Source of the DNA: Candidatus Omnitrophota bacterium
Lineage (GTDB): Bacteria; Omnitrophota; Koll11; Zapsychrales; Zapsychraceae
NCBI GenBank assembly: GCA_023140095.1
Contig: JAGLMJ010000010.1
Location: forward strand, 1 to 18,521
Length of the DNA: 18,521 nt
Direction: 5' to 3'
Shown here: one piece after another, positions 1,091 to 3,671 of the stretch
How positions within the stretch are numbered: position 1 is the first letter of the stretch
Layout of the letters: the number at the start of each line of letters is the position of its first letter
Made by a program: the position numbers and the translations under genes
The notes under the pieces: model-generated
Told to the model about the DNA's origin: nothing
Databases searched by the model: none
Seen by the model: the letters and a program-made list of their open reading frames with translations, nothing else

Positions 1091-2311
1091 TCACCCGCTT
1101 ATGTCGCCCGCATAGCATTCATTTTCACCGCTATGATCGATCCCTTGCTTTTCCTGTGGGCAATCGAAATGAGCCTTCGCGCGAATTTTTCCAAGAAGAT
1201 AGTCCCTTTCATCCTCCTTATTGACCAAAATAGCGCCAACAAGACAGTTGTCCTTTACATACAGTCCTTTATATGTACCGGATTCTTGATCAAAAGCATG
1301 GCTTACCGTAACTCCTTCTTCATCGACGCGCCCTAAAACCGTTATGACAAACCCTTCGATATTCTCACTCCAACAGCATACCGGCATTGAAAATACGATC
1401 TCTTGACCATTGATGACAGCCGCAACGGCCTTTCCCTGCTCTTCAAGCACCGAAAGCGGTGTTACCGGCTCAGTCCCGCTTAAACCGCATGCCTGGTCAA
1501 TAACAAAAACATCATCCGCCTCGGCTTTAAATTCAGGGCTAACCTCGATCTTCTGGTCCGTCTTCAGCGAGGAACCGGAAAATAACCGCAAATCCTCATC
1601 CGTTTCAACAAAAAGAATAACTTCGGCCGAAAAAACTTTTCCGGATTGAAGCCGGACGGCCTTGGCATCCTTATCACCTAATATTTCCGATATCGTATTG
1701 CCCCGTATGATACGCAAGCCTTTTTCTTCCCATTGGCTGATCAACCATTCAAGCGTCTCTGCCTCAAAGTGCGCGGCCAGAAAATCGTTCTGCGAAGAAA
1801 CAAGAATAACTTCTTTTTTCCGTTTGATAAAACTAAACGCCGCTGCAAGGCCCGAGAAACTGTCTGATTGAATGACCACGGTCTTGATAACCGGCAAGGC
1901 ATTGACGATCCGGTCGATATCTTTGAGCTTTTTATACCCGTAAATATTTTCCTTATTCGTGCCCTTAATATCCGGATATCTGTTTTCCGGAGTATCGGTC
2001 ACGACAAGAACATCATAATCGATCGCACTTTTATCCTCGGTAAAGATCTTTTTACGCTTAAAATTAATGCGGGATATTTTCTGGTCAAGGATCATATTGA
2101 CCTTATGCTGATCATAAAAATCCTTCGGCCGGTAAAAAACGTTCTCGGGGGTTATTTCGCGGGCAATAAAAGGCGCGAAGGCATCGCGCTTATATGGATA
2201 ATGCCCGTCAAGGGCAATGATCGTGATCTCGCTTTCCGCATCATGGCGGCGGACTTCTTTGATCATTTTCGCACCGGCAGCCGAGCTGCCTAAAATAACG
2301 ATTCTCTTCAT
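1091..2311 (-). CDS. Pyridine nucleotide-disulphide oxidoreductase-like flavoprotein with degenerate motifs
   Basis: The 406-residue protein has the layout of FAD/NAD(P)H oxidoreductases of the rubredoxin-reductase/NADH-oxidase type. It has an N-terminal Rossmann strand IVILGSSAAG (4-13), a YPYKR segment after the second strand, a central second Rossmann unit (about 143-195), and a C-terminal domain with GLYVKDNCLVGAIL (349-362). Several cofactor signatures are eroded. The ATG motif position reads VVTDTP (103-108). The central glycine-rich loop reads QSDSFSG (148-154) instead of GGGxxG. The late GD motif reads VFVIDQA (268-274), keeping D but not G. There is no redox CxxxxC motif. The ATG start follows the folD stop by 2 nt; an upstream GTG at 2320 overlapping folD is possible. 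Cotranscription with fchA and folD suggests a one-carbon or redox partner role, but catalysis is uncertain. Confidence 0.75.
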   Translation of the reverse strand: MKRIVILGSSAAGAKMIKEVRRHDAESEITIIALDGHYPYKRDAFAPFIAREITPENVFYRPKDFYDQHKVNMILDQKISRINFKRKKIFTEDKSAIDYDVLVVTDTPENRYPDIKGTNKENIYGYKKLKDIDRIVNALPVIKTVVIQSDSFSGLAAAFSFIKRKKEVILVSSQNDFLAAHFEAETLEWLISQWEEKGLRIIRGNTISEILGDKDAKAVRLQSGKVFSAEVILFVETDEDLRLFSGSSLKTDQKIEVSPEFKAEADDVFVIDQACGLSGTEPVTPLSVLEEQGKAVAAVINGQEIVFSMPVCCWSENIEGFVITVLGRVDEEGVTVSHAFDQESGTYKGLYVKDNCLVGAILVNKEDERDYLLGKIRAKAHFDCPQEKQGIDHSGENECYAGDISG

Positions 2312-2313
2312 AC

Positions 2314-3189
2314 TTACCACTGGCCTTTCTTCTTTGCTTGTGCTTTAAACGCTTCGATGCCGTTGCGCATGAGCATGACCACCGTCACCGGACCGACCCC
2401 GCCGGGTACCGGCGTTATAAAAGACGCTTTTTTGCGTGCAACATCAAACTCAACATCACCGACGATCTTATCGTTAACCTGATTGATCCCCACGTCAATG
2501 ACGACCGCACCCTCTTTGATCCAATCGCCTTTGATCACCGATGGCTTGCCGACGGCGACCACGACAATATCCGCGCGGCGAACATGCTCCTCGAGCCGTC
2601 CGGCCTCGCTCGTTGCGATATGGCAAACGGTGACTGTCGCAAATTGCTCGAGCAACAGCAGGCTCAACGGCTTGCCGACGATCACGCTGTGGCCGACGAT
2701 CACCGCTTCCTTCCCGTAGAGATCAATACCGGTCGACTTAATGTGCTCCATCACGGATGCCGGCGTGCAGGGAATGATCTTAGTCTCGCCGATGAGCATC
2801 TTCCCGATATTCGTAACATTGATCCCCTCGAGGTCCTTGTCGGTATCGACATACTGCGCGACATCACTGTATTTGATGTGCCTCGGCACCGGCTTGTGGA
2901 TCATGATGCCGTTGACGGTCTCGTCGCCATTGAGGCGCTTGATGCATTCGCTGAAATCTTTCCGGGAAACATCGTCCGGCAGGGCTTCCAGATCATATTG
3001 AATGCCGATATATTCTGCCGCTTTTCTTTGCGACTTGGCGTACGCGCAGGCGCCGTGATTATCCCCGACCATCACGTTGACTAAACGCGGGACAGAACCG
3101 ATCTCGGCCTTTAAGGCCGCCACTTCATCCTTCAAAGTACTTTTAAGGTTCTGGGCAAGTAACTTACCGTCTAAAATCTTCGCGCTCAC
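2314..3189 (-). CDS. folD: Methylenetetrahydrofolate dehydrogenase (FolD family), cyclohydrolase site altered
   Basis: This 291-residue protein aligns without gaps to E. coli FolD through its active-site region. It has the N-terminal KILDGKLLAQ, the PCTP motif (140-143), the dinucleotide loop VGHSVIVGKP (165-174), and the C-terminal signatures GDWIKEGAVVIDVGIN and ITPVPGGVGPVTV. The family interconverts 5,10-methylene-, 5,10-methenyl- and 10-formyl-tetrahydrofolate in the cytoplasm. Y50 is kept, but the catalytic lysine position is Q54, the conserved glutamine is H98 (followed by K98+1) and the conserved aspartate is E121. In the human enzyme the equivalent lysine (K56) is needed for cyclohydrolase activity, so a monofunctional dehydrogenase is inferred. 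The nucleotide loop has H where NADP-specific enzymes usually have R, so NAD use is possible. The GTG start overlaps the fchA stop by 4 nt (GTGA), implying translational coupling. Confidence 0.95.
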   Translation of the reverse strand: MSAKILDGKLLAQNLKSTLKDEVAALKAEIGSVPRLVNVMVGDNHGACAYAKSQRKAAEYIGIQYDLEALPDDVSRKDFSECIKRLNGDETVNGIMIHKPVPRHIKYSDVAQYVDTDKDLEGINVTNIGKMLIGETKIIPCTPASVMEHIKSTGIDLYGKEAVIVGHSVIVGKPLSLLLLEQFATVTVCHIATSEAGRLEEHVRRADIVVVAVGKPSVIKGDWIKEGAVVIDVGINQVNDKIVGDVEFDVARKKASFITPVPGGVGPVTVVMLMRNGIEAFKAQAKKKGQW

Positions 3190-3671
3190 GTATTGATCTC
3201 CACATTGATATGCGCCGCATTAAACGCTGCCAAGAACATCTCGCCAGCGACTTCAATATCGCTGATTAAATGCGGATTGCCTTTTTCAACCAGATACGGC
3301 GTTAATTGTACGCCCTTGTAACAGAGCCAACAGACTTCGCGCGGAACCTTCGCCGCCTCGCGCAATGCCTTCTTTTTAACTTGAGCCGATTGCTTACGCG
3401 CCTTGACCACACCAAGATAAGCGCGCGTATCAAGATCAACAAGTTCCAAAAGGCGCTTACGGATCTGCTCGCTTTTTGTCAAAATCGAACGGATCTTATT
3501 CTCAACTCTCTTGGATCGGCTTCGGCCTTTCGAATAGTTCGCCACCATGGAAACAAGCGCCGCTCCGGTTGCCGCCGTTAATGCCGCGGCCGAGCCTCCG
3601 CCGGGAACCGGCGTCTTTCTCGACAAGACATCGAGATATTCAGAGAGTGTGTGATTCTTGTATTTTTTCAT
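3186..3671 (-). CDS. fchA: Cyclodeaminase/cyclohydrolase family protein (FchA-like)
   Basis: The protein belongs to the formiminotransferase-cyclodeaminase family, whose stand-alone bacterial members act as methenyl-tetrahydrofolate cyclohydrolases or formimino-THF cyclodeaminases. Visible hallmarks are HTLSEYLDVLSRKTPVPGGG at residues 7-26 from the chosen start, followed by SAAALTAATGAALVSMVAN, a charged helical middle and the family end GNPHLISDIEVAGE. I chose the ATG at 3671 because homologues begin just before this domain. The frame is open to a TTG at 3743 with ATGs at 3719 and 3707, and none has a convincing ribosome site. The 161-residue product stops at EINT, where relatives usually continue for another helix, so it is C-terminally short. 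Its stop overlaps the folD start, so the two are probably made together as successive one-carbon enzymes. Confidence 0.85.
   Translation of the reverse strand: MKKYKNHTLSEYLDVLSRKTPVPGGGSAAALTAATGAALVSMVANYSKGRSRSKRVENKIRSILTKSEQIRKRLLELVDLDTRAYLGVVKARKQSAQVKKKALREAAKVPREVCWLCYKGVQLTPYLVEKGNPHLISDIEVAGEMFLAAFNAAHINVEINT

Follow-up and report, generated by a model that had tools for sequence, protein, structure and literature searches.

Does the FolD encoded at this Omnitrophota locus still carry out both reactions of a bifunctional FolD, or has the cyclohydrolase step passed to the FchA-family protein encoded beside it? The question arises in an 18,521-nucleotide stretch of DNA from a Candidatus Omnitrophota bacterium (the window), where the initial annotation saw a FolD that had lost its three catalytic residues next to a stand-alone FchA and proposed that the two enzymes divide the labour. 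Our comparison of sequences suggests, with a probability of roughly three in four, that the window FolD is a dehydrogenase only, one that prefers NAD, and that FchA hydrolyses or forms methenyl-THF. Published work is cited by PMC identifier.

The folD-fchA locus

The genes in question (Table 1) follow one another along the minus strand in the order fchA, folD, oxidoreductase, with no metF between them. The overlap of folD with the FchA-family gene, already reported in the initial annotation, is confirmed, and its GTGA would be consistent with translational coupling. Read from its GTG start, the oxidoreductase frame reaches 7 nt into folD, and an ATG lies three codons later; this gene adjoins folD in close relatives as well, and a gene related to it stands beside metF and acsB in locus L014. 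Before fchA on the same strand are genes that we take to be tgt, trmD, rplS, rnhB and yraN; in the relative L014, TGT, tRNA m1G methyltransferase and RNase HII are confirmed.

Table 1. Features of the folD-fchA region of the window.
Feature	Position	Strand	Description
folD	2314..3189	-	PF00763+PF02882, GTG start; predicted NAD-preferring monofunctional methylene-THF dehydrogenase
fchA-like	3186..3671	-	ATG start, 161 aa, PF04961; stand-alone FTCD_C / methenyl-THF cyclohydrolase family protein
folD/fchA start/stop overlap	3186..3189	-	GTGA, 4 nt; read from sequence
FAD/NAD(P) oxidoreductase (Pyr_redox_2)	1091..2320	-	downstream of folD

The window FolD scores 99.9 bits against PF00763 (gathering cut-off 32.8) and 212.1 bits against PF02882 (gathering cut-off 27). 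It reaches none of the NCBIfam cut-offs among the best 25 of 30 matching models, its best scores against the bifunctional models being 301 (cut-off 423) and 299.5 (cut-off 355). Its AlphaFold model (mean pLDDT 95.4) matches E. coli FolD chains in Foldseek with TMq 0.85-0.91 and other FolDs with up to 0.93. No FolD relatives were found in viral contigs.

Aligned to E. coli FolD and numbered after it, the protein has Y50, Q54, H98, K99 and E121, together with K52, H167, I191, A192 and a three-residue insertion after T193. The triad and the intact Y50 thus stand as first read, in place of the catalytic K54/Q98/D121 of bifunctional FolDs. The alignment had also been called gap-free, which it is not: apart from the insertion, each of the two sequences has a gap of one residue around position 30, and since these cancel, the window numbering equals that of E. 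coli FolD up to residue 193. Q54/H98/E121 recurs in 119 of the 120 homologues listed (the best 120 of 8000 scored), which rules out an assembly or sequencing artefact. The sole exception among the 120, P0078, is a protein of 442 aa with an extra PF16994 domain and Q54/Q98/D121.

The window FchA scores 147.4 bits against PF04961 (gathering cut-off 24.5; profile positions 1-164 of 182) and 116.7 against the FchA equivalog NF045657, below that model's cut-off of 275 (positions 3-169 of 207). Its model (pLDDT 96.6) matches M. extorquens FchA (7vg4) with TMq 0.85-0.92 and 36-37% identity, and the T. maritima cyclodeaminase (1o5h) with TMq 0.93; a sequence search also matched both. Since both match by fold, fold does not separate a cyclohydrolase from a cyclodeaminase. 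M. extorquens FchA has 216 aa against the 161 aa of the window protein, and FchAs of the window clade are without the last ~40-50 residues of characterised FchA, whereas another Omnitrophota group (L014 type) is without ~24 internal positions instead. The columns invariant over 44 aligned FchAs (S27, L39, M42, D81 and D138) are kept in both shortened groups. From family and context we infer that the window FchA acts on methenyl-THF.

Distribution in Omnitrophota

A genome scan gave 94 stretches encoding a FolD relative, the best 80 of which were analysed. Q54 and E121 occur at 32 of these loci (L009 is cut by a contig edge before position 54 can be called), 30 of them labelled Omnitrophota; the other two are labelled Planctomycetales (L012) and Poribacteria (L038). 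In 29 of the 32 the gene directly upstream is fchA; the exceptions are L009 and L021, at contig edges, and L027. At 39 more of the 80 the FolD is K54/Q98/D121 and the flank contains no fchA (among them L045, split by a stop). The remaining nine are Bacillota loci, each with a Q54/E121 FolD and, after it, one of the K54/Q98/D121 type (L073 breaks off before position 54). L012, a Planctomycetales-labelled contig with an Omnitrophota-like fchA-folD, is possibly mis-binned or transferred.

Among 145 genomes drawn evenly from the phylum to which L002 belongs, FolD occurs in 132, FchA in 132, both in 131 and neither in 12; G132 has FolD only, and G116 a weak FchA match only. We typed 128 FolDs, from 30 loci and 98 fetched regions, and the FolDs of four more genomes (G002, G004, G011 and G019), taken from the best-80 scan, agree with them. 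Q54 is present in 127 of the 128, E121 in all and Y50 in 126, while position 98 is Q in 75, the rest having H, S, A, T, N, E, G, M and others. A lone FolD of this phylum (L192:2438-3340) has L54/F98/E121 and a long branch. An fchA open frame is located no more than 400 nt upstream of folD in 123 of the 128; in the five others it lies 844 nt away (L084), it is on another contig (L195, L207 and L166, the last with folD at a contig edge) or the genome is G132 (L107). A Q54/E121 FolD with an adjacent fchA is thus a phylum trait in Omnitrophota.

Fhs exceeds its cut-off in 54 of the 145 genomes and in 53 of the 131 that carry both FolD and FchA. In the other 78 of these 131 sampled carriers neither Fhs nor another FolD was found, so that there FolD and FchA form the only route from methylene-THF to 10-formyl-THF among the searched families. 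Some carriers have the gene order fhs-fchA-folD (e.g. G080 and G133), and L014:7460-12745 has fchA-folD-metF-FAD/NAD oxidoreductase-acsB, an acetyl-CoA pathway setting.

The near-universal adjacency, the 4-nt overlap in the window and the clade-specific shortening of FchA would also suit a physical complex of FolD and FchA that channels methenyl-THF, the split enzyme acting as one unit. We regard such a complex, which is compatible with a dehydrogenase-only FolD, as possible if on the unlikely side, given that fchA and folD lie on different contigs in G070, G125 and G167 (in G167 folD is at a contig edge).

Two genomes, both drafts of several contigs, lack a detected partner: no FchA was found in G027, and neither FchA nor Fhs in G132. 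In G027 (L027:488-9088) a FolD with Q54/Q98/E121 sits in the cluster metV-metF-folD-CODH-oxidoreductase-acsB, and Fhs is in two pieces; having Fhs and an acetyl-CoA pathway cluster, this organism should need a cyclohydrolase. If FchA is truly absent from these genomes, the step would fall to residual FolD cyclohydrolase, another enzyme or spontaneous hydrolysis.

Catalytic role of the replaced residues

The initial annotation counted all three substitutions as catalytic losses, and here the comparison supports it in part. K54Q stands. Position 98 is ruled out as the key change because Q is kept in 75 of the 128 Omnitrophota FolDs; the position is relaxed, which leaves K54Q and D121E as the defining changes. 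Among the 156 distinct non-tandem Q54/E121 FolDs it is Q in 90, against 68 of 68 canonical ones, and H98-K99 accordingly marks a sub-clade, 98 being Q in most of the wider clade. D121E is conservative, with the carboxylate kept.

Published mutants bear on these positions. In E. coli FolD, K54N has ~19% of the dehydrogenase activity and undetectable cyclohydrolase, and Q98H ~8% and ~1%, respectively (PMC5688156). In the B. mori enzyme, K53A keeps both activities (cyclohydrolase kcat/Km 0.097 vs 0.13 for wild type, in vitro), and D120A keeps cyclohydrolase, its kcat/Km for MTHF being undetectable; an E. coli D121 mutant is cited there at 0.17% (PMC6443876). A modelling study argues that the lysine is not the base, yet holds that a catalytic role for it is not excludable (PMC9173628). 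The E. coli data thus support a role for the lysine in the cyclohydrolase reaction, and one insect enzyme contradicts it; as for E121, we would sooner see in it a changed binding residue than the loss of a catalytic one.

Could the window FolD still be bifunctional, with K99, K52 or water replacing K54, and FchA redundant or a differently used cyclodeaminase? The insect K53A enzyme, which retains cyclohydrolase (PMC6443876), would allow it, as would K99 beside H98 in the window, its K52, which is the commonest residue at that position in the Q54/E121 clade (76 of 156), and the two drafts without detected FchA. However, K99 occurs in just 29 of the 156 distinct clade members and position 99 is M or L in 100, which rules it out as a general replacement lysine; the E. 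coli K54N enzyme has undetectable cyclohydrolase (PMC5688156), and a redundant FchA is not what one expects in 131 of 132 FolD-bearing genomes. We consider a bifunctional window FolD improbable.

It seems to us very unlikely that FchA uses some other folate (e.g. formimino-THF), that methenyl-THF opens spontaneously or elsewhere, and that a dispensable cyclohydrolase allowed the FolD residues to change. PF04961 does include formimino-THF cyclodeaminase (1o5h, 1tt9), hydrolysis can be spontaneous (PMC5688156), and the window FchA has a shortened C-terminus and scores under the equivalog cut-off. Yet both by fold and by sequence its best match is 7vg4, a methenyl-THF cyclohydrolase; Q54 and E121 show fixation and not drift, and fchA adjoins folD, with fhs or metF also there in relatives. 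Since spontaneous hydrolysis occurs and E. coli K54N cells live (PMC5688156), FchA need not be essential.

Adjacency and phylogeny

We scored positions 54, 98 and 121 against the presence of an adjacent fchA, as had been proposed with the initial annotation. All loci together gave 359 FolD rows and 313 distinct sequences, 307 after six with gaps at typed positions were dropped. None of the 198 distinct, fully typed FolDs adjacent to fchA is canonical, 149 being Q54/E121 and 49 other. Those with neither an adjacent fchA nor a tandem FolD number 75, of which 68 are K54/Q98/D121 and seven Q54/E121 (L021, L027, L084, L107, L166, L195 and L207). Tandem FolDs make up the rest, 18 canonical (one being the split L045) and 16 Q54/E121. 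As a control, any PF04961 match was found in 6 of 38 searched canonical-FolD genomes (L058 left out), three of them in open frames >400 aa.

Bacillota offer a comparison. In a draw of 249 genomes, FchA occurs in 146 and FolD in 240; 110 FchA places were examined (30 loci, 80 regions), a part of the draw's total. FolD adjoins fchA at 51 of the 110. Positions 54 and 98 could be read in 50 of these, without a canonical FolD among them: 24 are K54/E98/D121 in the order folD-fchA, 25 have A/I/V54 with M/F/L98 in the order fchA-folD (two cut before 121), and one is L54/L98/D121. The 30 best-scoring Bacillota FolDs, which form a biased sample, are canonical throughout and never fchA-adjacent. The presence of FchA alone is ruled out as a predictor of loss, a non-adjacent PF04961 gene being present in the genomes of 6 of these 30 and likewise in 6 of 38 other genomes. 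The loci L247-L273 and L304-L383 represent two further Bacillota active-site states, each tied to one gene order.

In a tree of 182 rows, built by a quick method and with long-branch warnings, all Q54/E121 FolDs and the L54/F98/E121 row lie on one side of a branch with SH-aLRT 99, and the first FolD of the Bacillota tandems (FolD-1) lies inside this side with one Omnitrophota and the Poribacteria row (SH-aLRT 97). In a careful tree of 73 rows without the longest branches, a Q54/E121 group excluding FolD-1 appears in 0 of 200 bootstrap trees, and the canonical FolDs are also on one side of a branch. Given this position of the canonical FolDs, a single ancient split would account for the pattern of canonical and non-canonical FolDs, which may thus be one ancient event; an independent-pairs test of adjacency against loss gave three pairs, one informative, with p = 1. 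Because the three active-site states differ, a single event cannot account for every residue change.

Cofactor preference

Of 68 distinct canonical FolDs, 64 have R167, 64 have S191 and 52 have R192, whereas of the 156 distinct non-tandem Q54/E121 FolDs 11 have R167, 12 have S191 and 151 have G or A192. With H167, I191 and A192, the window FolD is without the putative NADP 2'-phosphate residues, as in a monofunctional NAD-type enzyme. We take positions 167 and 191 to correspond to Arg166 of B. mori and Ser197 of human MTHFD1, from the alignment made here. Arg166 (PMC6443876) and Ser197 (PMC9173628) have each been tied to cofactor binding.

The methylene-THF dehydrogenase of T. phaeum is reported to prefer NAD+ ~10,000-fold over NADP+ (printed values 2,757,304 vs 275 mU/mg, obtained with a chromatography fraction). 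The same paper assigns dehydrogenase and cyclohydrolase to the tandem genes Tph_c16310-16320, which it describes as two subunits of a single enzyme with both activities (PMC6895022). Another paper calls the T. phaeum tandem FolDs bifunctional, with NADP (PMC12674515). The NAD+ figure, which comes from a cell fraction rather than from separated proteins, fits the NAD-preferring prediction.

Tandem FolDs in Thermacetogenium-type Bacillota

In one Bacillota class, of which 20 genomes were covered, tandem FolDs occur in 17 of 17 FolD-bearing genomes (L209-L238; e.g. L033:7998-9823), and tandem loci carry labels such as Thermacetogenium sp. (L039) and Syntrophaceticus sp. (L073). FolD-1 has Q54/E121 (16 distinct sequences; G041 is cut at 54), H167, I or V191, A192 and T193, and keeps the GxSxxxG motif. 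FolD-2 has K54/Q98/D121 in all; R167 (W, F or H instead), S191 (P instead) and T193 are absent in 17 of 17 distinct sequences (L045 excluded), the exact register near 192-195 being uncertain owing to a short deletion. The loss is reciprocal, FolD-1 being without K54 and D121 and FolD-2 without R167, S191 and T193 of the dinucleotide site. In the 182-row tree FolD-2 falls with the ordinary FolDs of Bacillota, on a stem as long as 1.19 changes per site. No PF04961 match was found in the drafts G186 and G187, two of the 17 tandem genomes. G191 has the FolD tandem and two strong fhs matches, and T. phaeum is said to have two fhs genes (PMC5113046).

Relatives that carry the residues without fchA had been named in the initial annotation as evidence against a division of labour. 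Taken literally such relatives exist, namely G027, G132 and the tandem FolD-1 with Q54/Q98/E121; FolD-1, however, has as its neighbour another FolD in which the cyclohydrolase residues are intact. A simple reading is that FolD-1 would have arrived as a dehydrogenase without cyclohydrolase and that the native FolD kept only cyclohydrolase, with a direction of transfer that we infer. More generally, we lean towards a distinct lineage of NAD-preferring, dehydrogenase-only FolDs, defined by K54Q and D121E and dependent on a partner for cyclohydrolase, which in Omnitrophota would be FchA, and which moved into the ancestor of the Thermacetogenium-type syntrophic acetate oxidisers, where the adjoining native bifunctional FolD lost its cofactor site and became cyclohydrolase-only.

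Discussion

The proposal of a dehydrogenase-only FolD with FchA as cyclohydrolase gains support from the phylum-wide Q54/E121 FolD with fchA, from the want of any canonical FolD among 198 adjacent ones (68 of the 75 non-adjacent, non-tandem FolDs being canonical), from the reciprocal loss in the tandems and from the E. coli K54N and Q98H enzymes. We envisage that K54Q would remove the cyclohydrolase lysine; with the lysine gone, position 98, the Gln partner of that lysine, would be free to drift, while E121 would keep the carboxylate for pterin binding. Loss of R167/S191/R192 would shift the cofactor to NAD+, and FchA, encoded directly upstream with its 4-nt overlap, would hydrolyse (or form) methenyl-THF. 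Several points tell against this explanation: the B. mori K53A enzyme, the modelling study that doubts the lysine as base, the viability of E. coli K54N cells, G027 and G132 without detected FchA, the canonical FolDs lying on one side of the tree, the window FchA below the equivalog cut-off, and the 11 and 12 of 156 that keep R167 and S191.

How does the window compare with known systems? Acetogens are known to have a monofunctional methylene-THF dehydrogenase and a separate cyclohydrolase, and Acetobacterium woodii and Clostridium formicoaceticum use two proteins for the two steps (PMC9124964), as proposed for the window; like the prediction made here, they use NAD+ (titles cited in PMC7793690; A. 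woodii activity table, PMC6436200). The fchA-adjacent Bacillota FolDs typed here differ from the Q54/E121 type of Omnitrophota in having K54/E98/D121, or A/I/V54 with M/F/L98 and D121. They also mostly keep R167/S191/R192, which the Omnitrophota type has mostly lost. With bifunctional FolD (E. coli, human MTHFD1 D/C domain) the window protein shares the fold (TMq 0.85-0.93; 50 PDB matches listed), Y50 and PGGVGP (aligned by structure, it is 43% identical to E. coli FolD), and it differs in the replaced K54, Q98 and D121, in H167, I191 and A192, and in the three-residue insertion. Yeast MTD1 (1edz) is alike by description, monofunctional and NAD-dependent (titles cited in PMC5718140), but distant in sequence from the window FolD (78 bits); it has been called cyclohydrolase-only instead (PMC11064299).

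Paired monofunctional enzymes are thus already known. What is new, as far as we searched, is the lineage with Q54/E121, the near-fixation of this type across a phylum and the reciprocal pairing of FolD-1 with FolD-2. In open-licence PMC full texts, where residues as such are not searchable, we came across neither the reciprocal tandem pair nor the residues of the Omnitrophota FolD. The database models matched here call these FolDs bifunctional, and papers on syntrophic acetate oxidisers repeat the label. We suggest that positions 54/98/121 and 167/191/192 be checked before "bifunctional FolD" is written.

If our reading is true, the tandem pair would provide natural single-function versions of the textbook bifunctional enzyme, and the disputed role of the lysine could be tested in proteins of a cultured organism. 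On the same premise, the C1 branch of the whole phylum Omnitrophota would be NAD-linked and dependent on FchA.
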